44,523 bases of DNA, taken from positions 1 through 44,523 of the IMG/VR virus record IMGVR_UViG_3300044826_000309, one strand, 5' to 3'. Below the pieces are notes generated by a model that made no database searches, was not told the DNA's origin, and saw only the letters and a list, made by a program, of their open reading frames with translations. Source of the DNA: a virus. A program made the position numbers and the translations under genes. Positions 3,295 to 44,257 of this stretch are shown in pieces. Numbering within the stretch: position 1 is the first letter of the stretch; each line of letters begins with the position of its first letter.

Positions 3295-3609
3295 TTAGTT
3301 AGTTGTTTGAGGCTGTGCGTGGGTGTGTGCACACGCTTCGGGTGACTGTGCGCACACGGTTTTTAAGTGTTTTGTTATTCGTTCGCCACTCCAGTCGGCT
3401 GGGAGTTCGGCTTTATAAGTCGTGCCATAGATTTCAAATCTCTCAATGCGTCGGGCTTCCTCCCCTTCTTGTAGCCAGTACAGGCCGTCGTCTGTCCAGT
3501 AGTAGATGATTTGCATCTGTGACTGTGCGTTGTTTGGGGTGTGCGTGGGTGTGTGCACACGGTCTGAGGGGTGTGTGCACACGGTTGTTGGGGTGGTTTC
3601 GTTAAGCAT
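3295..3609 (-). CDS. Small protein whose two ends are encoded by dispersed GTGTGCACAC repeats
   Basis: Product is 104 aa, with a GGAG ribosome site before the ATG at 3609 and an 8-nt overlap with the preceding gene's stop. The N-terminal stretch TTVCTHPSDRVHTPTHT and the C-terminal AQSPEACAHTHAQPQT are translations of a dispersed DNA repeat. Between them is a compact domain, MQIIYYWTDDGLYWLQEGEE to ADWSGERITKHL, which looks like a real folded beta-strand-rich module. Function unknown. The gene may be an original ~65-aa protein extended at both ends by repeat insertion. Confidence 0.6.
   Translation of the reverse strand: MLNETTPTTVCTHPSDRVHTPTHTPNNAQSQMQIIYYWTDDGLYWLQEGEEARRIERFEIYGTTYKAELPADWSGERITKHLKTVCAQSPEACAHTHAQPQTTN
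3313..3360. repeat. GTGTGCACAC repeat, diverged copy A
   Basis: This stretch contains GTGCGTGGGTGTGTGCACAC followed 13 nt later by GTGCGCACACGG, the same bipartite layout as copies B and C but diverged. It encodes the C-terminus of the 3295-3609 product. Confidence 0.75.
3539..3597. repeat. GTGTGCACAC repeat, copy B
   Basis: This 59-bp unit is identical to copy C (3894-3952) at 58 of 59 positions. It is made of GTGTGCGTGGGTG followed by the palindrome GTGTGCACAC, a short linker TCTGAGGG, and a second GTGTGCACAC. Here it encodes the N-terminus of the 3295-3609 protein. Confidence 0.85.
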
Positions 3610-5203
3610 GGTTAGTCTCCACTAATAGGTATTTGGCTTTGCCCGGACGGTAGTCGGGGTTTAATGTGATTTTGCTGTTAGGGTCATTGACTGCACGCTG
3701 AAATAGGCTTTGGGTGAGTGCGTCAATGTCTACCGGTGTGGGTGTGCTGCGGCGGGCTTGGCTACCTTTGCCTGCAATTTTGCTTTGCACCCAAGGGCGG
3801 GTTTCACGCACTGTGGCTTTGCACTGGCCTGTGTGGATGGCGGTTAGCCATTCTTTATAAAGACTGGGGGTGGCTGCCAGTGGTTTATTCTGGGTGTGCG
3901 TGGGTGTGTGCACACGGTCTGAGGGGTGTGTGCACACGGTTGCTGGGGTGGTGGGTGTGCGGTTAATCACGGCCTGAATGTCTGCGAGTGGAGCCGATTT
4001 GTTTAGTGCTGGATCAGGTGGGAATTCCACGCCTGCTTTGCGGAGTTCCTCGGCGTAGGTGCTGATAGCGGGAATGCTCAGTTGATGTTCGTTTGAGGTG
4101 TGCGTGGGTGTGTGCACACGGTTGCTTGATGTATTCCAGATGAAGCCTATCGGTTTATGTTCCTGTTCCTGTTCATCGTGCGCGTGGGTGGTCGATGGAA
4201 CCAGTGGGGCAGTAGATGGCAACGATAATGATTGAGTGATGGGGGTTGGTATGTTGAATCCCATCGTCGGTTTGTAGTTAGGCATGCTAGGCGTTAAGGG
4301 AGTCGATGTAGACAAGGCTGGGTCTTGGCTTTGTAACTCGGCTAGTTGCATTTCGAGTGTTTGAATAGCCGCTGTACTTTGTCCTTTAGCTCTACTCAAG
4401 AAATGGTGCAAGATTTCAAAGCTGATTGCGACAATCAACATGATGAATACAACGGCTGCTTTAATGTGTGATTTGTAGTCAGTACCCGAGAATAGGCTCA
4501 TCAATTGAGCCATCATAACTACGACGGGATTGTACGCCTCCGCCTTTAGCTGATCTTGGCGCTCATAGCGTAGTTTTTCGTTTTGACTATTTGCCTGAAT
4601 TTGTGCTGACAAATTATTTTTCTCAGAGTCGAGAAGAGCTTGTAACTGAGCGCGGTCACCTTCGCAGTGTTTTTCTTTTCCTGCCTTTATATTTTCTTCG
4701 CATCGCGCTAGCGTTTGTCGGGCTTTAGCAATACGACTCACTAGATAGATATCAGCAGTAATAGGGGTGTTGCTTTGTCGTGTATCGCGGAATGATGCAC
4801 TCCGCTCTACATTGATATTGGCTTTCGCGTCTTGGTTCGCCGAACTGCTAAAAAATTCCGCGAAGAGGGCAAAGCCGATGACTGTCACGACAATGAGGGC
4901 AATTGAGCCAAATAGGCCAAAATGCAGGTAGGCGTGATGTTTGGTGGCGGCTAAGAAGATGGCTGTGAGCATTACGATACTCATCGTAAATATAAAGCCT
5001 AGTGTGCCATGCCAACTGGCGAAGTATGCTGACCACCCAAGGTAGTTCCCGAGGTACAGCTCTAAGCCAAAAGCTATGAAAAACAAAAAGGTTAGCACGG
5101 CCGCCATTTTTAGTAATTTGGCTGCTCGTTGATCATGGGTCACTAAGTCAGTAATTTGTTGCTGCAAGATCTCAGCTTGTTTTTGCTTGAGTAAATCGGA
5201 CAT
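3602..5203 (-). CDS. Membrane protein with four helices, coiled coil and repeat-interrupted tail
   Basis: Product is 533 aa with a perfect AAGGAGG site before the ATG at 5203. Three hydrophobic helices lie at about residues 32-50, 67-86 and 94-117, then a charged region (about 150-225, predicted coiled coil), then a fourth helix at about 248-268. The remainder is a long low-complexity Pro/Thr/Ser linker containing two translated GTGTGCACAC repeats, and a C-terminal domain (about 440-533, YKEWLTAIHTG to KYLLVETNHA) that is basic and could bind nucleic acid. I do not recognise the family. The layout suggests an inner-membrane protein with a soluble effector end; superinfection exclusion or membrane anchoring of replication are possible but unsupported. 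Confidence 0.75.
   Translation of the reverse strand: MSDLLKQKQAEILQQQITDLVTHDQRAAKLLKMAAVLTFLFFIAFGLELYLGNYLGWSAYFASWHGTLGFIFTMSIVMLTAIFLAATKHHAYLHFGLFGSIALIVVTVIGFALFAEFFSSSANQDAKANINVERSASFRDTRQSNTPITADIYLVSRIAKARQTLARCEENIKAGKEKHCEGDRAQLQALLDSEKNNLSAQIQANSQNEKLRYERQDQLKAEAYNPVVVMMAQLMSLFSGTDYKSHIKAAVVFIMLIVAISFEILHHFLSRAKGQSTAAIQTLEMQLAELQSQDPALSTSTPLTPSMPNYKPTMGFNIPTPITQSLSLPSTAPLVPSTTHAHDEQEQEHKPIGFIWNTSSNRVHTPTHTSNEHQLSIPAISTYAEELRKAGVEFPPDPALNKSAPLADIQAVINRTPTTPATVCTHPSDRVHTPTHTQNKPLAATPSLYKEWLTAIHTGQCKATVRETRPWVQSKIAGKGSQARRSTPTPVDIDALTQSLFQRAVNDPNSKITLNPDYRPGKAKYLLVETNHA
3894..3952. repeat. GTGTGCACAC repeat, copy C
   Basis: This is the near-identical partner of copy B, but it lies inside the coding region of the 3602-5203 membrane protein, where it adds the peptide TVCTHPSDRVHTPTHT in frame. 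The near-identity of B and C next to a diverged copy A suggests recent duplication or gene conversion. Confidence 0.85.
4098..4124. repeat. GTGTGCACAC repeat, half copy D
   Basis: Only the first half of the unit is present (GTGTGCGTGGGTG plus GTGTGCACACGG). It is in frame in the same membrane protein gene, giving SNRVHTPTHT. Confidence 0.75.
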
Positions 5204-8949: not shown

Positions 8950-9461
8950 TGAAAAAGCCCGATTCAGGTAAGGTCGGTGTCGGGTTTAGCAGCCTGAAAC
9001 TTACAAAAGGCGCACAAGCGCCAATTTCTTCGGTGCTTTTTTTATTTGTAGCACCCGAAGTTTCTCCCTTTGGTAGTGTGCGTGGGGAGACCTTCGGGTC
9101 TGCCGGTTTAGCCTTTTGTAGCCGGTCTGCTAACCCCGCGCATGCTGCCACCAATTTATTTAGCAGTGGATTGTGGCAGTGGTTATTCACCCTACAAAAG
9201 GCCACAATCATGCCTATTTTAATAGTTCGGCATGCGGCTACGCTCAAGGAGCTAGCTGAGCATGCACGCATTCATTCGGCGCAAACCTGCGCATTAGCTG
9301 AAACAATTCATACTTTAGCTGCGGATAAAGACGAGTTCCAAGACGCTCGGCATTTTATCCAAGTCACTTCATTAATTTGGTTGCTGCTGGCACTGCTGGA
9401 GCAGCAGGAAGCGTTGTGCGAGCGGATTGAGAGTTTAGTGTTTGAGGGGGCTTCAGCATGA
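8949..9461 (+). CDS. Long in-frame ORF across the RNA immunity region (Ash-like)
   Basis: The frame is open from ATG 8949 (TAATG overlap) to 9461, 170 aa, and contains the shorter 9210 gene in frame. Its first part, KPDSGKVGVGFSSLKLTKG then VLFLFVAPEV, recalls the Ash-type ORFs that overlap the CI RNA of P4-like elements. Much of that sequence is constrained by RNA structure, so it may be a leader ORF translated only under some conditions. Treat the part before 9210 as uncertain. Confidence 0.4.
   Translation: MKKPDSGKVGVGFSSLKLTKGAQAPISSVLFLFVAPEVSPFGSVRGETFGSAGLAFCSRSANPAHAATNLFSSGLWQWLFTLQKATIMPILIVRHAATLKELAEHARIHSAQTCALAETIHTLAADKDEFQDARHFIQVTSLIWLLLALLEQQEALCERIESLVFEGASA
8982..9011 (+). 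promoter_or_regulatory. Leader target segments (seqA) of the antisense RNA
   Basis: GGGTTTAGCAG (8982-8992) and TTACAAAAGGC (9001-9011) are each complementary to a segment of the downstream RNA: CTGCTAACCCC (9127-9137, 10 of 11 pairs) and GCCTTTTGTAG (9111-9121, 10 pairs plus a G-U). GGCGC-ACAA-GCGCC and a GCAC/GTGC hairpin with T7 follow at 9009-9042, a candidate conditional terminator. Confidence 0.65.
9062..9185 (+). ncRNA. P4-CI / P1-C4-type antisense immunity RNA
   Basis: Ends are approximate. The segment contains a perfect AGACC-TTCG-GGTCT hairpin (9088-9101), a loop closed by CCGG/CCGG that exposes GCCTTTTGTAG (9111-9121), the single-stranded CTGCTAACCCC (9127-9137), and a final stem CTGCCAC (9145-9151) with GTGGCAG (9173-9179). 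The two exposed sequences are complementary to paired sequences both upstream (8982-9011) and downstream (9159-9202), the latter covering the ribosome site of the 9210 gene. This is the logic of the CI RNA of P4 and the C4 RNA of P1/P7, which are processed from the leader and cause early termination or block translation. Family membership is inferred from layout, not from a covariance search. Confidence 0.65.
9159..9202 (+). promoter_or_regulatory. Downstream target segments (seqC), including a ribosome site
   Basis: TTTAGCAG (9159-9166) and CTACAAAAGGC (9192-9202) repeat the leader pair and are complementary to the antisense RNA; the second is an exact 11-nt match. AAAAGG inside it is the ribosome site of ATG 9210, so pairing would block that gene. 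Confidence 0.65.
9210..9461 (+). CDS. Small protein under antisense-RNA control
   Basis: Product is 83 aa from ATG 9210, with AAAAGG 8 nt upstream. It is helical (LKELAEHARIHSAQTCALAE, then a hydrophobic LIWLLLALLEQQEALCERIE). It holds the position of ant in P1 and of kil or icd-type host-inhibition genes in P4-like elements, but the sequence is not clearly similar to those. Blocking by the RNA predicts that it is harmful to the cell or promotes lytic growth. The stop overlaps the next start by 4 nt. Confidence 0.65.
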   Translation: MPILIVRHAATLKELAEHARIHSAQTCALAETIHTLAADKDEFQDARHFIQVTSLIWLLLALLEQQEALCERIESLVFEGASA

Positions 9462-9703: not shown

Positions 9704-10548
9704 GTATCAAGTTGATGTCTGCGGCGTGGGAGATACCCGAAGGTGTCATGTCGCAAGGGCGTAAATTTTTGCTAGTCGCACTCTGTGATATGGCGAATGA
9801 TGCGGGGGCTTGTTTTCCTTCGGTGGGGTATTTAGCCCGTAAATGCTCTATGTCGGAGCGGACAGCTCAGGGGCATATTCAATGGCTTGCTGAGAATAAA
9901 TTCTTGTCGCTTGAAACTCGTGAGGGGCGGTCTACGATTTATACCGTGAATGCTGCCCTGTTATTAGCACCCCCGCAGAATCTGCACCCCCGCAGAATCT
10001 GCACCCCCGCAGAATCTGCACCCACCCCCGCAGAATCTGCACCCACCCCCGCAGAATCTGCACCCACCCCCGCAGAATCTGCACCCATAACCCAAACTAA
10101 ACCACCACCTAACCACCACCTAACCACCACGGGGGAGTCCGCTAGCGCGTCCGTCGTCGTGTCGGATGCTACGCAGTTGGAAAAAAGCTTGCCTTGGCCT
10201 GCTGGCTTGAGTGCTGAGCAGCGCCAGCATGGGGCACGGTTGCTGTGTGGCTTGCCTGTGGCGCAAGCGGAGGTTTGTGTCCGGCTGCTGGCGCAAGCCT
10301 TGGCGAGTCGAGATGTGCCAAAGCCTGCGGGGTATTTGGCGGCCTTGGCGGTGCGGGCTAGGGCGGGGACGCTGGATGTTAGCGCATTGGAGTCGACGGT
10401 GGCGGTAAGGGCGGAGCAAGTTCCTGTGAGTGCGGCGCATCGGGATTGGAAGGTGGTGAAGGCTGAGGCTGAGCGGGTTTCGGCGGCAGAACGGGCGGCG
10501 GAGGCGGCGCATTGGGCACGGTTGAGGGAGTTGGGGGAGGCGCTATGA
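9700..10548 (+). CDS. Replication initiator (lambda O-type) with internal origin
   Basis: Product is 282 aa. The N-terminal ~90 residues are a winged-helix domain of the phage replication-protein type: AWEIPEGVMSQGRKFLLVAL, then ACFPSVGYLARKCSMSERTA, then GHIQWLAENKFLSLETREGR. A central Pro-rich linker (about residues 90-150) is encoded by six DNA iterons. The C-terminal part is an Ala/Arg/Glu-rich helical region that may recruit the helicase. As with lambda O, the initiator gene probably carries the origin it binds. The stop overlaps the next start. Confidence 0.75.
   Translation: MSIKLMSAAWEIPEGVMSQGRKFLLVALCDMANDAGACFPSVGYLARKCSMSERTAQGHIQWLAENKFLSLETREGRSTIYTVNAALLLAPPQNLHPRRICTPAESAPTPAESAPTPAESAPTPAESAPITQTKPPPNHHLTTTGESASASVVVSDATQLEKSLPWPAGLSAEQRQHGARLLCGLPVAQAEVCVRLLAQALASRDVPKPAGYLAALAVRARAGTLDVSALESTVAVRAEQVPVSAAHRDWKVVKAEAERVSAAERAAEAAHWARLRELGEAL
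9975..10082. repeat. Six iterons, GCAGAATCTGC core (putative origin)
   Basis: The near-palindrome GCAGAATCTGC (5-bp arms, one central base) occurs at 9975, 9992, 10009, 10030, 10051 and 10072, each preceded by a run of C. Spacing is 17, 17, 21, 21 and 21 nt. The first three are read in three different frames (PQNLHP, RRICTP, PAESAP), so DNA, not protein, is conserved. A CCTAACCACCA tandem follows at 10101-10130. Confidence 0.9.
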
Positions 10549-11383: not shown

Positions 11384-12232
11384 ATGAATGACGCACTAGC
11401 CAAGCTCCAGAGTCAAATGCAGCAGTTGGGGATTACTCCCCCGACTGCTTTTTCAATTGACGGAAAACTGCACCGGTTCGGTGAGATAAAAACTAAGCAG
11501 CATGGGTGGTATGTGTTGCGCTGGTTTCGCTTAGATTCGGGGATTGAGGTACTCACTGGGGCGTTTGGGGATTGGAAGCTGTATCAAGACCAGTCGTTTG
11601 TTGTGGATTTTGATTTGCCCCCCTTTTCGGATGAGGAAAAGGCAAAGTTTAAGGCAGAGCAGAACCGGATTCGACGGGCTAAGGCTGAAGAGCAGAAGGC
11701 GCGGCAGAAGGAGGCGGCAGAACGAGCGGGGCGGATTTGGGGGAAGTTGCCGACTGAAGGCTATTCCCAGTATTTGCAGCGAAAGCAGGTGGCGGGGGTC
11801 GGGGTTCGGTATTCGCGCGGGTCGGTAGTTGTGCCGGTTTGCAATATCGAGTCGGGGGCTTTGGTGGGATTGCAGTTTATTGCTGAGGACGGGACTAAAA
11901 AGTTTTTGACAGGGACTGCCAAGGAAGGGGCAGGGCATGTGTTAGGGCTGCTGGAGGGGGCTAAAACGGCGTTTATTGCGGAGGGGTATGCTACGGCGGC
12001 TTCGGTATTTATGGCGATGCAGAGGCCGGTTATTTGTGCATTTGATGCGGGTAATTTGTTGTCGGTGGCTAAGGCATTGCGGGCTAAATATCCTGAACTG
12101 AAGCTGGTGATTGCTGCGGATAATGACACAGAGACGGAGGGGAATCCGGGGTTGACGAAGGCAAGGGCAGCGGCTAAGGCTGTCAATGGGCGGGTAGTTA
12201 TACCCCTGCAAACGGCTGCGCCTCAGCCATGA
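11384..12232 (+). CDS. TOPRIM primase subunit
   Basis: Product is 282 aa. A lysine-rich helix (about residues 85-115) links an N-terminal domain to a TOPRIM domain with FIAEGYATAAS (Glu near residue 198) and VIAADND (Asp residues near 244-246), the metal-binding motifs of DnaG-type primases, as in the P4 alpha / D5 class. The N-terminal region lacks a clear CHC2 zinc finger. The domain ends early: the DWND element that usually closes it is found at the start of the next ORF, in the same frame but after several stops. Hence this looks like half of a split primase-helicase. Confidence 0.8.
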   Translation: MNDALAKLQSQMQQLGITPPTAFSIDGKLHRFGEIKTKQHGWYVLRWFRLDSGIEVLTGAFGDWKLYQDQSFVVDFDLPPFSDEEKAKFKAEQNRIRRAKAEEQKARQKEAAERAGRIWGKLPTEGYSQYLQRKQVAGVGVRYSRGSVVVPVCNIESGALVGLQFIAEDGTKKFLTGTAKEGAGHVLGLLEGAKTAFIAEGYATAASVFMAMQRPVICAFDAGNLLSVAKALRAKYPELKLVIAADNDTETEGNPGLTKARAAAKAVNGRVVIPLQTAAPQP

Positions 12233-12259
12233 TAACGACGATAACAATGAAGGTTTACA

Positions 12260-13696
12260 GTGGATTGGAATGATTGGCATGTGTCTTACGGGTTAGATGC
12301 GCTACGGGTTGCAATTGTAGAGCAACTACAGGCTATGGCAGCAGATGACGCGGCTAAAGCTGTGCCAGCGCCAGCGGGGGATGCTGCTGATGCAGATGCA
12401 GAGGTGCATTGGAATGGTTTATTGCTACGTGATCAATATGGTTACATCAAGCCGATCATGGGGAATATTGCACTGATTCTGACGTATCACCCTGAGTTTA
12501 AAGGAGTGTTGGCCTATTGTGAATTTTCTAATCAGATCAAAAAATTAAGCAACAGCGGGATAGGGGAAACAGGCGCGTTAGATGATGAGGACACGCTAAA
12601 AGCCAAAGATTGGCTTACTACGCATTATCGAGTATCGCCGAAAACTCAGGAAATTGAAGAGGCCATGCGGTTAGTTGCAAGAAAGTCTAGCTTCCACCCC
12701 ATTCGGGAATTTTTAAGTAAATTGGTATGGGATGGGGAAGAGCGCTTAGGGCGGTTTTTGGCGGATGTGTCGGAGTCAGAGCAAGACCCTGAATATTTAA
12801 GGCTAGCTTCACGTAAGTTTTTTATTGGGTCAGTGGCGCGGATTTTTAAGCCGGGTTGCAAGATGGACACGATGTTAATTTTGGAGGGGAGGCAAGGCAA
12901 ACGGAAGTCTAGCTTTATTGAGATGATGTATGCACCGTGGTCGATTAGTTCAACATTTGATATTCGCTCCAAAGAGGGGTTCCAGTTTATCCAAGGGCTG
13001 TGGGCGGTGGAGTTTGCTGAGCTGGATGCGATGAATCGGGCCGAGTCGACGGCGGCGAAGCAGTTTATTACGTCGCCGGTGGATCGGTTTCGGCCACCGT
13101 TTGGGCGGCTTGTTAAAGATTATCCGCGTCAGTGTGTGTTTTTAGGGACGACGAACGATAAGCAATATCTTAATGATCCGACGGGGAATAGGAGGTATTG
13201 GCCGCTGGAATGCCCGACGGTGAATTTTGAGTATGCGCAACGTGTGAGAGATCAGGTTTGGGCTGAGGCGGTGGTGGCATTTAATGCGGGGGAGGACTGG
13301 TGGGTTAAGGCGCATGAGCAGCCTTTGTTTGAGGCCGAACAGGATCGGAAAACAATTGATGATTTGTGGCAAGCGCCCATTGAAGAGTATTTGCGTGATT
13401 CGATGATTAAAGATAAGCCGATATTGAGCGGTGCGCAGATATTAAAGGGCGCATTAGGTAAAGACGTGGGACATGGGTCAAAAGTCGATTACAAGCGGAT
13501 CAGCGATGTGATGAAAGGATTGGGCTGGGAAAAGCAAAAAAAGCGATTGATTGATACGTCTAATCCGGTCTGGGTGTATGTAAGGCCAATCAAGAATAAT
13601 GCGCCAGCAGAGAAAAATGGCGGTTTAAATAGCGTGCCAAGCGCCAGCGTGGGGTTGAGTGCGCAGGAGTGGCAGGACTTTGAGGAGGGGATTTAA
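12260..13696 (+). CDS. VirE/D5-type replicative helicase with GTG start
   Basis: Product is 478 aa. GTG 12260 follows GAAGG by 7 nt. The N-terminus (DWNDWHVSYGLDALRVAIVE) matches the tail of fused TOPRIM proteins. The VirE-type superfamily-3 ATPase core follows: LILEGRQGKRKSSF (P-loop, about residues 206-218), AVEFAELDAM (Walker B), FITSPVDRFRPPFGR, VFLGTTNDKQYLNDPTGNRR (sensor and arginine finger). The P-loop reads GRQGKRKS, with Arg where the family normally has Gly before Lys-Ser. A C-terminal winged helix (LKGALGKDVGHGSKVDYKRI) probably contacts DNA. Confidence 0.85.
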   Translation: MDWNDWHVSYGLDALRVAIVEQLQAMAADDAAKAVPAPAGDAADADAEVHWNGLLLRDQYGYIKPIMGNIALILTYHPEFKGVLAYCEFSNQIKKLSNSGIGETGALDDEDTLKAKDWLTTHYRVSPKTQEIEEAMRLVARKSSFHPIREFLSKLVWDGEERLGRFLADVSESEQDPEYLRLASRKFFIGSVARIFKPGCKMDTMLILEGRQGKRKSSFIEMMYAPWSISSTFDIRSKEGFQFIQGLWAVEFAELDAMNRAESTAAKQFITSPVDRFRPPFGRLVKDYPRQCVFLGTTNDKQYLNDPTGNRRYWPLECPTVNFEYAQRVRDQVWAEAVVAFNAGEDWWVKAHEQPLFEAEQDRKTIDDLWQAPIEEYLRDSMIKDKPILSGAQILKGALGKDVGHGSKVDYKRISDVMKGLGWEKQKKRLIDTSNPVWVYVRPIKNNAPAEKNGGLNSVPSASVGLSAQEWQDFEEGI

Positions 13697-13704
13697 GGTG
13701 GGTC

Positions 13705-13983
13705 TGTTCCAGATGTTCCAGTATGTTCCAATGGATTTTCGAGCATTGGAACAGGTTTTTTATTTTAAGAATCAATTGCTTGTAAGGTTTTGTTCCAATG
13801 TTCCAAAGAAATTGGGGGTTTACGCATACGTGTGTGCGCGTGTGCAGGCGTGCGCGTGCGTGCGCATACGCGCGCGGAATATGTATATTTTAATGGAACA
13901 CTGGAACAAAGTAGAAATACTTAATAAGTATCAATTAGTTAGCGTGTTCCAATGAAATGAATGTTACTGGAACATCCGGAACA
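13705..13983. repeat. Ten-copy TGTTCCA / TGGAACA array
   Basis: Exact TGTTCCA lies at 13705, 13714, 13724, 13791, 13799 and 13945; exact TGGAACA at 13747, 13894, 13902 and 13968, plus a one-mismatch copy at 13977. Several come as pairs 8-9 nt apart. The array fills the gap between the helicase gene and 13957. It could be an origin, a partition-like site or a multi-site operator. Confidence 0.85.
13821..13876. other. Alternating purine-pyrimidine tract (Z-DNA-prone)
   Basis: Two runs of strictly alternating purine and pyrimidine, 26 nt (13821-13846) and 29 nt (13848-13876), rich in CG and TG steps, lie in the middle of the TGTTCCA array. Such DNA readily adopts Z-form under negative supercoiling. 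Confidence 0.8.
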
Positions 13984-14233: not shown

Positions 14234-14671
14234 ATGATAGAGATCGTTAATAAAAAGCTAGCGCCAGAAGCAGTGTTTGCGGATTTTGAGGCAGTCGTGT
14301 TAGATGGTCATCAGGCATTAAATCAATGGGGGCAGTTTTGGGGGCAGAATCAGCGGGTGGCGAACTTGGGGTATCCAAGTATGACTCCGTTTACTCGACT
14401 CGTTACGCCGAGTCGCAGCAGTGATTGGGATATGGATGTAATGCCGTTGGAAGTGGAGCATGTGGATCAGTTGATTAAGCGGCAGTCGTTGTTAGTGATC
14501 GAGGCGGCACGGTGTTATTACGTTCTGCATCGGGGGGAGTCGATACGGGATGGGGCGGATAGTTTGGGGCGTAAGGTAGGGGGAGTGGTGGCGGCTACGC
14601 GGTTTAATGAGCTACTTCGGATTGCTAAGTACGTGGTGGGCATGGGGCGGGTGGCGGATGGGTTTGTTTGA
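14234..14671 (+). CDS. Q-like late-gene regulator / antiterminator candidate
   Basis: Product is 145 aa. The pattern QWGQFWG, then LGYPSMTPFTRL, then VEHVDQLIKRQSLLVIEAAR, then a C-terminal helix-turn-helix-like region (SLGRKVGGVVAATRFNELLR) matches the layout of phage Q/ArpU-type late regulators: a short W-rich start, a GYPS..PF.RL motif, an intermediate helix and a sigma-region-4-like end. It lies after the replication genes and 1.1 kb before a promoter-terminator pair (15752-15930), the expected target of an antiterminator. Function is inferred from motif order and position; sequence similarity to lambda Q itself is not evident. Confidence 0.5.
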   Translation: MIEIVNKKLAPEAVFADFEAVVLDGHQALNQWGQFWGQNQRVANLGYPSMTPFTRLVTPSRSSDWDMDVMPLEVEHVDQLIKRQSLLVIEAARCYYVLHRGESIRDGADSLGRKVGGVVAATRFNELLRIAKYVVGMGRVADGFV

Positions 14672-14684
14672 GCTGTTTTAGCAG

Positions 14685-14776
14685 ATGTTCCCCGTCTTTA
14701 TTTGGGGATGAACCGCGTCTATGAAAACTGTGTGTTTTTAGTATTCTATGTTCCCCGCTATTGTGGGGATTTATTT
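14685..14776 (+). CRISPR. Type I-E-like repeat-spacer-repeat (mini-array)
   Basis: Repeat 1 (14685-14715) begins ATGTTCCCCG and ends GGGGATGAACCG, the two ends of type I-E CRISPR repeats, with a 9-nt rather than 7-nt centre. The spacer at 14716-14747 is exactly 32 nt, the I-E length. Repeat 2 (14748-14776) is ATGTTCCCCG, CTATTGT, GGGGAT with a 6-bp stem and TATT loop; its 3' end is degenerate (TTATTTT), as terminal repeats often are. No cas genes are present. An inverted TTCCCCG half-site at 14795-14802 overlaps the next promoter, so these could instead be operators. Confidence 0.55.
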
Positions 14777-14788
14777 TTTTAATACCCA

Positions 14789-14817
14789 TTTACACGGGGA
14801 ATAAAATAACGTAGTAT
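14789..14817 (+). promoter_or_regulatory. Promoter of the small-gene operon
   Basis: TTTACA (14789-14794) and TAGTAT (14812-14817) are 17 nt apart, 33 nt before ATG 14850. CGGGGAA, the inverse of the CRISPR-like TTCCCCG, lies at the start of the spacer region and could be an operator. Confidence 0.6.
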
Positions 14818-14849: not shown

Positions 14850-15185
14850 ATGAGTAGCAAAGATTTATCAGAATTCTACAACCAGTATGTTGTAGCAAAA
14901 GACTCTCTCTACGGAGAGAAAATAGGACTAGTTACAAGCGCATCGCCATTTTCGATGCACGTAAAGTATAGCCACGATGATTATACCCCATTCAGAATGG
15001 GGTGTGATGGACTAACTGTAAGGCTAGCAAACGCTAATGAGATTCAGGATTTTCTGGATCGAATGAGCCGTACTGCACCAAGCAGTGCAACAAAAATGTT
15101 GCAAAGGGGTGAAAAGCTACTGAAAGCCCTGAATAAAGGGCAAGCCGAAGCGGATTATGAGTACAACACACTGGAGAGAAAGTAA
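14850..15185 (+). CDS. Small-operon protein 1, 111 aa
   Basis: A good AGGAAG site precedes ATG 14850. I do not recognise the family. The product has a strand-rich first half (EKIGLVTSASPFSMHVKYSH) and a helical second half (NEIQDFLDRMSRTAPSSATK), is soluble and mildly charged. It is the first of three coupled small genes with their own promoter, inserted between the Q-like gene and the late promoter. The layout (small unknown genes followed by a DNA-binding gene) is that of many phage anti-defence operons, which is only a contextual hint. Confidence 0.7.
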   Translation: MSSKDLSEFYNQYVVAKDSLYGEKIGLVTSASPFSMHVKYSHDDYTPFRMGCDGLTVRLANANEIQDFLDRMSRTAPSSATKMLQRGEKLLKALNKGQAEADYEYNTLERK

Positions 15186-15448
15186 TGGATAGAATTCTGA
15201 TAACTGCGCGGCATCGCCGCGAGGTTAATAATAGTCTCATTTTAGGGAACTCCATTCGAGTAGAAATAGATGGATTTACAGTGCAAAGCCATTTTGCTCC
15301 ATGTCTCCGAGAGTATGACCAAAATGCTCTTAATCAAATCAAAAGAAAGGGCGCTATCGTCAATTTAAAAAACCACAAAAAAATACAAGAAACCCTAGAA
15401 GCGCTTAAGGCTAAATATCCTGGTCTGCCAGTTCAGGATAACTCATGA
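15185..15448 (+). CDS. Small-operon protein 2, 87 aa
   Basis: The start overlaps the previous stop by 1 nt (TAATG). The product is basic: ARHRREVNNSLILGNSIRVE, then NALNQIKRKGAIVNLKNHKK, then a helical tail. Strand-then-basic-helix content would suit nucleic-acid or nucleoprotein binding. No family recognised. It is coupled to genes on both sides (4-nt overlap with the next). Confidence 0.7.
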   Translation: MDRILITARHRREVNNSLILGNSIRVEIDGFTVQSHFAPCLREYDQNALNQIKRKGAIVNLKNHKKIQETLEALKAKYPGLPVQDNS

Positions 15449-15744
15449 AAACCATTAAACTATCCAAGGCTCTTCGGGGTCTTGGAGCAACAAGCATTTT
15501 TGATATGGAGGTACTGCTGACCATTGCGGCACATCCTGAGTCTGGTAAGTCTGACCTAGTAGAGTATGTCTATGGGGCACGGGACGCCACAAAATCGGGA
15601 CTGGATGGGTCGATAAATAGGCTGTTGAAGTGGGATTTAATTCAATCGACTCAGCCAGAGCACGCTAACCGAAAGGCAGGTGATGCTCTAAAACACTATA
15701 GTCTGACAGAAAAAGGCGTCGAACTAACCAGAGGAATAAAATAA
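15445..15744 (+). CDS. Winged-helix regulator ending the small operon
   Basis: Product is 99 aa. It has a MarR/PadR-like winged-helix pattern: SIFDMEVLLTIAAHPESGKS, then SGLDGSINRLLKWDLIQ (recognition helix), then HYSLTEKGVELTRG, the typical wing strand and closing helix. It probably represses its own operon; candidate sites are the TTCCCCG inverted motifs at 14748-14802. Its place as the last gene of a short operon resembles anti-CRISPR-associated (Aca) regulators. A transcription factor fold is well supported, the target is inferred. Confidence 0.75.
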   Translation: MKTIKLSKALRGLGATSIFDMEVLLTIAAHPESGKSDLVEYVYGARDATKSGLDGSINRLLKWDLIQSTQPEHANRKAGDALKHYSLTEKGVELTRGIK

Positions 15745-15817: not shown

Positions 15818-15853
15818 AAAAAGCCGCACGGGAAACCGGAGCGGCTTTTTTTA
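15818..15853 (+). terminator. Late-leader terminator 1
   Basis: AAAAAGCCGC pairs with GCGGCTTTTTT around a 13-nt loop and ends in T7. It also serves as the end of the small operon. Confidence 0.85.
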
Positions 15854-15942: not shown

Positions 15943-16434
15943 GTGAGTCAGTGGGTATTGGTGATCTTAGTGTTAGTCATGGGATCACTGGCTATCGGCT
16001 GCACTGCACAACAGCAGGCACGGCGGATTGAGCCAAGTTATGTAGGGCAAGGATTCAATGTAACTGAGTGCGGCCCCGCTAGTGCAGCGATGCTTGTGAA
16101 TTTCGCTGGCGGAAAATCGTCTGTCGCTGAAGCCCGAAGGATCACTAGACCGCATGGGCTATGGACGCTGGATGATATTGAGAGTCACATCACTAATAAA
16201 AATATCACATTCAAGGTTTTAGCTGGGTTCAGTGTTGCAGAGTCATTAGCTGACGGTGGAGCTATTGCAGCGCTCATCAACATTGGAATCACTCATCATT
16301 TTGTTGTCGCATATGAGCTGCGTGACGGCTTGGTACGTGTGGCAGATCCGCTTTTTGGCATGCGCTGGGATAGTGTGGAGTCGTTTGATAGTCGAGCTGT
16401 GCCGATGTTTATCAAAGTAGAGCGCAAGCGATGA
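15943..16434 (+). CDS. Lipoprotein with C39-like cysteine peptidase fold
   Basis: Product is 163 aa from GTG 15943. The lipoprotein signal ends in AIGC (Cys20). The rest fits the peptidase C39/papain-like layout: ECGPASAAMLVNFAGG with catalytic Cys43, THHFVVAYEL (His118 or His119) and VADPLFG (Asp135). C39 domains cleave double-glycine leaders, but single-domain lipoprotein versions are of unknown use. It starts the late region just before a second lipoprotein and the lysin-like gene, so a role in lysis or envelope disruption is inferred. Confidence 0.7.
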   Translation: MSQWVLVILVLVMGSLAIGCTAQQQARRIEPSYVGQGFNVTECGPASAAMLVNFAGGKSSVAEARRITRPHGLWTLDDIESHITNKNITFKVLAGFSVAESLADGGAIAALINIGITHHFVVAYELRDGLVRVADPLFGMRWDSVESFDSRAVPMFIKVERKR

Positions 16435-43534: not shown

Positions 43535-44257
43535 TCAAGCAGGTTGGATGTCTAGCATTTTTGCTAGTTTGGTCATACCTTTAGCGGTGATGCGGACTTG
43601 AGTGACTAGTTTGTCCGTGCCGTCGCCGCGTTGAACGACTTCGATTTTGTGTTCAATCAGTCCTTGCCTAAGTTTGTCTTGGTAACCCGACCATGCGCTT
43701 GAGCCGGTGCGTTTGAATATCCATTCATGGGTGAAGAGGAAGCCAAACAGTTTTTTGGGTTGGATTTGCAGTTGTTTAGCGGCATCGGTCATGCACAAAG
43801 AGCCTTCGGCTTTAGCAAGGCGCTCAAGGGCTTGAACGTCGGGTTGCATTTCTTCGACCTTGTGTTCTAAGGCTAGGCGTTCTTGTTCGGCTTGCATCGC
43901 CATTTCGAGGAGCTGCAAGCGGCTCAAGTTGGTTGGGTCGAGTGCTTGGCAATTGATCTTGTGAGCCAGCTCATAAAAGGCTTTAACTAGGCGCTTTTTG
44001 AAGGTTCGCACGATTTCAGTGTTTTTTAAGTAAGTGAGAATGAGTGTTGCTTGCTGCTCATTAAGTAAGGCGTATTCTGTTGGGCTGCCTTTGGGGTTAA
44101 GTCGCATTTCAAATGTGACTTCTCCAAAATCTTGCAAGTCACCTAAATAGCGTCGAACTAATTGAATAACTGCCTTGTGTTCGTTATTCACGCCTTCAGC
44201 GATAGCAATCGTTGAAGTATATGCAGCGTCGTTTTTGAAAATGATCAAAACGTTCAT
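43535..44257 (-). CDS. rha: Rha-family regulator with KilAC (antirepressor) domain
   Basis: Product is 240 aa. The N-terminal ~95 residues match the Rha family (AIAEGVNNEHKAVIQLVRRY, NPKGSPTEYALLNEQQATLI, IVRTFKKRLVKAFYELAHKI). A coiled linker (LEMAMQAEQERLALEHKVEE) leads to a C-terminal KilAC/ANT domain (EGSLCMTDAAKQLQIQPKKL, AKGMTKLAKML). Such proteins counter repressors or regulate phage growth. Since the CI-like protein lacks a cleavage domain, this antirepressor may be the induction route. It overlaps 44254-44523 by 4 nt and would end the leftward operon if the genome is circular. Confidence 0.85.
   Translation of the reverse strand: MNVLIIFKNDAAYTSTIAIAEGVNNEHKAVIQLVRRYLGDLQDFGEVTFEMRLNPKGSPTEYALLNEQQATLILTYLKNTEIVRTFKKRLVKAFYELAHKINCQALDPTNLSRLQLLEMAMQAEQERLALEHKVEEMQPDVQALERLAKAEGSLCMTDAAKQLQIQPKKLFGFLFTHEWIFKRTGSSAWSGYQDKLRQGLIEHKIEVVQRGDGTDKLVTQVRITAKGMTKLAKMLDIQPA

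Follow-up and report, generated by a model that had tools for sequence, protein, structure and literature searches.

A degenerate type I-E CRISPR-like mini-array behind the replication genes of a phage, and its possible action on host Cas proteins

Features of the locus

The window, i.e. the whole stretch of DNA that was analysed, is the complete IMG/VR viral record IMGVR_UViG_3300044826_000309 and comprises 44,523 nt (44.5 kb). Two repeats of type I-E character, here called R1 and R2, enclose a single spacer between a run of replication genes and a group of three small genes. The features are as follows.

14234-14671, plus strand: orphan ORF of 145 aa, last of the replication-gene run, with its stop codon 13 nt before R1
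14685-14715, plus strand: R1, I-E-like repeat of 31 nt, ATGTTCCCCGTCTTTATTTGGGGATGAACCG, with both conserved ends intact (covariance model and end-base score)
14708-14715, plus strand: 8-nt crRNA 5' handle AUGAACCG, a perfect I-E match by sequence
14716-14747, plus strand: spacer of 32 nt, CGTCTATGAAAACTGTGTGTTTTTAGTATTCT
from 14748, plus strand: R2, ATGTTCCCCGCTATTGTGGGGATTTATTTTTTT, starting exactly 32 nt past the end of R1
14748-14768, plus strand: 5' part of R2, the putative 21-nt 3' hairpin of a crRNA-like RNA (covariance model, fold)
14708-14768, plus strand: predicted crRNA-like RNA of 61 nt (8 + 32 + 21), from geometry and fold
14752-14780, plus strand: intrinsic terminator made of the R2 hairpin plus TTTATTTTTTT, which stands in place of the repeat's 3' end (terminator scan)
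14789-14817, plus strand: promoter-like TTTACA-17-TAGTAT ahead of the small-gene cassette, from a consensus scan alone in which the number of sites found was near chance
14795-14801, minus strand: inverted TTCCCCG (CGGGGAA on the plus strand), between the -35 and -10 of the promoter-like site
14850-15744, plus strand: three orphan small ORFs (111, 87 and 99 aa)

The I-E repeat form at issue is ATGTTCCCCG...GGGGATGAACCG. In R1 the two ends are separated by 9 nt instead of the usual 7, a centre 2 nt too long as had been noted in the initial annotation; the stem of only 4 bp given there has to be extended, as the four G-C pairs are joined by a flanking U-A and a closing G.U pair around an 8-nt loop (-9.5 kcal/mol). 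R2 folds into the stem CCCCGC/GUGGGG (6-7 bp, one G.U) with the tetraloop UAUU (-13.0 kcal/mol), and the spacer on its own forms a weak A-U hairpin. The geometry typical of I-E repeats (28-29 nt, 6-bp stem, tetraloop) is seen in R2, R1 being 31 nt long with its 8-nt loop. Of the conserved I-E ends R2 retains just the 5' end and GGGGAT. Its lost 3' end is now a T-tract (U-tract in the RNA), so that R2 is also an intrinsic terminator, a property absent from the initial description.

Mature I-E crRNAs have a standard format of 61 nt, with an 8-nt handle, a 32-nt spacer and a 21-nt hairpin. All parts retained in a mature I-E crRNA are present at the locus, and decay is confined to the R1 centre and the R2 3' end. 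From the biology of type I-E systems, Cas6e is predicted to cut after position 14707. No cas genes were recognised among the window proteins searched, which leaves a mini-array (at least two repeats, a spacer of 32-33 nt, no cas genes); Cas5 (PF09704), the sole Cas family tested directly, gave no match in the window. The earlier description of an I-E-like mini-array without cas genes and with one 32-nt spacer is borne out here by sequence, geometry and covariance model, and so is its reading of two diagnostic ends in R1, of an interval to R2 of exactly 32 nt, and of an R2 with a 6-bp stem, a tetraloop and a degraded 3' end.

Assignment of the repeats to type I-E

With the centre left free, the conserved ends of R1, TGTTCCCCG and GGGGATRAACCG, match the I-E consensus at 21 of 21 bases, whereas the best end score in dinucleotide shuffles of the window (n=200) was 17. 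A covariance model built from 38 I-E repeats, all taken from other viral contigs, returned R1 (28.8 bits, E=5.7e-9) and R2 (14.0 bits, E=0.007) as its top two matches in the window, on the same strand and 63 nt apart. The best scores of this model in control DNA were 13.9 bits (1.1 Mb of prophage DNA) and 16.3 bits (a further 0.94 Mb of viral DNA). The two-ended motif with a centre of 7-10 nt occurs in 8 of 369 gammaproteobacterial genomes, seven of which also have Cas6e; all copies among the matches listed have the canonical 7-nt centre, and a reversed-pattern control in the same 369 genomes gave 0 matches. Both ends intact around a centre of 8-16 nt were found in no other IMG/VR contig. From the shuffles, the covariance model and the genome and IMG/VR searches taken together, the ends are diagnostic and the R1 centre is unusual in its length. 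By sequence, geometry and statistics R1 and R2 are shown to be I-E repeats and not chance matches. The window has 12 copies of the heptamer TTCCCCG where 5.0 are expected; with the heptamer so common, it means little when taken alone.

Comparison with other viral arrays

A strict I-E pattern matched 46 IMG/VR contigs. When these were followed by a tolerant walk, the commonest form was two repeats with one spacer (18 contigs), and a single repeat was seen in 7; the counts are approximate, since one array is common to L030 and L047 and some of the second repeats are weak. Single traits of the array recur among these contigs: a terminal repeat with a damaged 3' end (L017, L037, L040, L048), a position few nt past a same-strand stop codon (L018, L031, L042) and a terminator immediately behind the final repeat (L033, L040). 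The G.U pair in the stem of R2 has precedents in the repeats of L039 and of genome G079. Seven one-spacer contigs (L006, L012, L018, L031, L040, L042, L048) share the 61-nt-type period, often have a damaged terminal repeat, and in several cases carry the array directly past a same-strand gene; they differ in that their intact repeat has the canonical 7-nt centre and their R2 is not fused with a U-tract. The array fits among the viral one-spacer I-E arrays, a known kind. A degenerate three-unit I-E-like array, whose repeats differ in centre and ends, was seen on the reverse strand of contig L004 at about 10100-10250.

Mini-arrays carried by viruses can be directed at rival viruses (PMC6858448, PMC11656645). 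The array resembles these in its small number of spacers (one or two in such arrays), putatively host-type repeats, lack of cas genes and location in a virus genome; in the published cases, however, repeats are described as identical to those of the host and most spacers match related viruses (PMC6858448; PMC11656645), whereas the present array has degenerate repeats and a spacer without a match. The phage-encoded I-E repeat mimics RacrIE1 and RacrIE2 inhibit I-E systems, a non-targeting crRNA, like RacrIF1, also lowers interference, and RacrIC1 shares a transcript with an acr gene (PMC10651486). With RacrIE1 and RacrIE2 the array has in common that it lies in a phage, mimics I-E repeats, lacks cas genes and likely acts through host Cas proteins; it departs from them in its two repeats and spacer, the longer centre of R1 and a terminal repeat that is a terminator. 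The term solitary-repeat type, used in the initial annotation, does not apply, as the published definition bars a partial repeat within 100 bp and R2 lies 32 nt downstream of R1 (PMC10651486). As we read it, the published filter for such solitary repeat units (SRU) drops repeats with a partial copy nearby, and two-repeat RNA anti-CRISPRs may therefore be under-counted (PMC10651486).

Spacer

The spacer, which had been thought able to steer host Cas proteins against a rival, gave no significant match, to related viruses or otherwise, when searched against phages, plasmids and IMG/VR. Targeting of the phage itself was likewise rejected, with no match in the window. A match to a related virus is typical of mini-arrays but no strict requirement, and unmatched spacers are common. 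The lack of a match makes a decoy a little likelier than a guide, although most spacers have no known match.

Neighbouring genes and transcription

The ORF at 14234 belongs to no family and has no convincing homologue in IMG/VR or phages; its structure model is all-helical and of low confidence (mean pLDDT 48), too poor for a fold search. The promoter scan gave no dedicated site immediately upstream of the array. In the minimum-energy fold the inverted TTCCCCG pairs with the left arm of R2 to give an alternative long hairpin or dyad. It was also considered as a third repeat and is not recognised by the covariance model.

A hairpin with a T-tract, seen by eye, lies at about 15823-15852, beyond the three-ORF cassette. 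The third ORF of the cassette (15445) has a winged-helix-like predicted secondary structure of low confidence (mean pLDDT 43), again too poor for a fold search. Nothing convincing was found for ORF 14850 in IMG/VR, phages or the 369 genomes, for ORF 15445 in phages, or for the small genes in tblastn searches against every fetched locus. Known defence or anti-defence families were absent from the small genes, and the region has no DNA relatives in phages. The layout of 14850-15744 appears to resemble that of an acr-aca cassette, and its genes are candidates for anti-CRISPR or other moron genes.

Virus and host

Portal, major head protein and terminase of the window are P22-like. For VapE the highest identity found is 39%, to proteins of Pseudomonas and Marinobacter phages; genomes and viral contigs scanned by alignment yielded no relatives of it above 38%, and the portal shares about 31% identity with enterobacterial phages. 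Assignment of a host via VapE, portal and coat was attempted and no host is named, because the relatives, chiefly from Pseudomonas and enterobacterial/Vibrio phages, are just 31-39% identical. Cas6e is present in 34 of the 369 gammaproteobacterial species sampled. A C4 antisense RNA (Rfam RF01695, 72 bits) is located at 9066-9155 on the plus strand; such RNAs are typical of P22/P1-like immunity regions. The anti-repressor Ant-like gene is distant from it, at 43535-44257 on the minus strand.

Proposed function and alternatives

The reading that we prefer, and regard as just about probable, is that the 3' UTR of the replication operon contains a degenerate virus-borne I-E mini-array, which gives a crRNA-like RNA that occupies host Cas proteins. 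The transcript of the upstream gene (ORF 14234) would run through the array and end at the R2 hairpin and U-tract. Host Cas6e would cleave it at the foot of the hairpin in R1, and perhaps at R2 as well, and the resulting 61-nt crRNA-like RNA would be taken up by type I-E Cascade of the host, the partner that we infer. The likeliest outcome would be a decoy in the manner of an RNA anti-CRISPR, with Cas proteins occupied by a guide not directed at the phage; if the spacer has a target, the host complex could also be directed at a competitor. The strongest objection to a functional array is that 5' processing depends on the R1 hairpin and this is where the wear lies, with a 9-nt centre and fewer G-C pairs; the absence of so long a centre with intact ends from other IMG/VR contigs, and the failure to find a promoter just upstream or a spacer target in phages, plasmids and IMG/VR, also count against it. 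As there is no homologous locus showing conservation, selection on the array is not demonstrable.

The main rival, which we consider rather unlikely, is a relic of an I-E array, inert and preserved only because R2 became the terminator of the replication operon. The quality of R2 as an intrinsic terminator speaks for it, as do the decayed R1 centre and R2 3' end, the failure to find a spacer target in phages, plasmids and IMG/VR, and that to find a dedicated promoter just upstream; yet the 21 end bases of R1, the exact 32-nt spacing and the canonical geometry of R2 are all intact, and a terminator needs none of them. Quite improbable in our judgement is a regulatory dyad, in which TTCCCCG would form the sites of the winged-helix-like 15445 protein, or an attenuator of 14850-15744, with the I-E likeness incidental or secondary. 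The inverted copy (14795-14801) does pair with the left arm of R2 and overlap the promoter-like site, but the I-E model misses this copy while finding R1 at E=5.7e-9, an operator leaves GGGGATGAACCG and the 32-nt interval unexplained, and the winged helix is a low-confidence call. That two terminator-like hairpins resemble I-E repeats by chance is scarcely credible and already disfavoured: hairpins with GC-rich CCCC/GGGG stems are common and TTCCCCG is over-represented in the window, but the shuffles reached 17 against 21, the E-values are 5.7e-9 and 0.007, and longer-loop matches number zero elsewhere in IMG/VR and zero among the matches listed in the 369 genomes.

A more specific form of the preferred crRNA-like decoy, unlikely as it stands, would be a compact anti-CRISPR, namely an early phage operon with a degenerate I-E mini-array in its 3' UTR, the terminal repeat of the array being crRNA 3' hairpin and terminator in one, beside an acr-aca-like cassette. 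If the array is functional, phages can dispense with everything in a host array except what persists in the crRNA, and can merge the final repeat with a terminator, and the three-gene orphan cassette becomes a source of candidate anti-CRISPR proteins.

Further features of the genome

On the minus strand at 3602-5203 a protein of 533 aa without PHROGs or PADLOC match is encoded. Primase (Toprim) and VapE-like helicase form a split pair at 11384-13696, with in-frame stops around 12230-12235; in related phages they are a single protein, and the split in the window is either natural or a broken gene. Between VapE and the next gene, at 13829-13877, lies an alternating GT/GC purine-pyrimidine tract, gtgtgcgcgtgtgcaggcgtgcgcgtgcgtgcgcatacgcgcgcgg, which is possibly Z-DNA-forming. 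The gene at 15943-16434, which adjoins the lysis/endolysin gene, encodes a protein that resembles C39-family peptidases and has a lipoprotein-like signal at its N-terminus.
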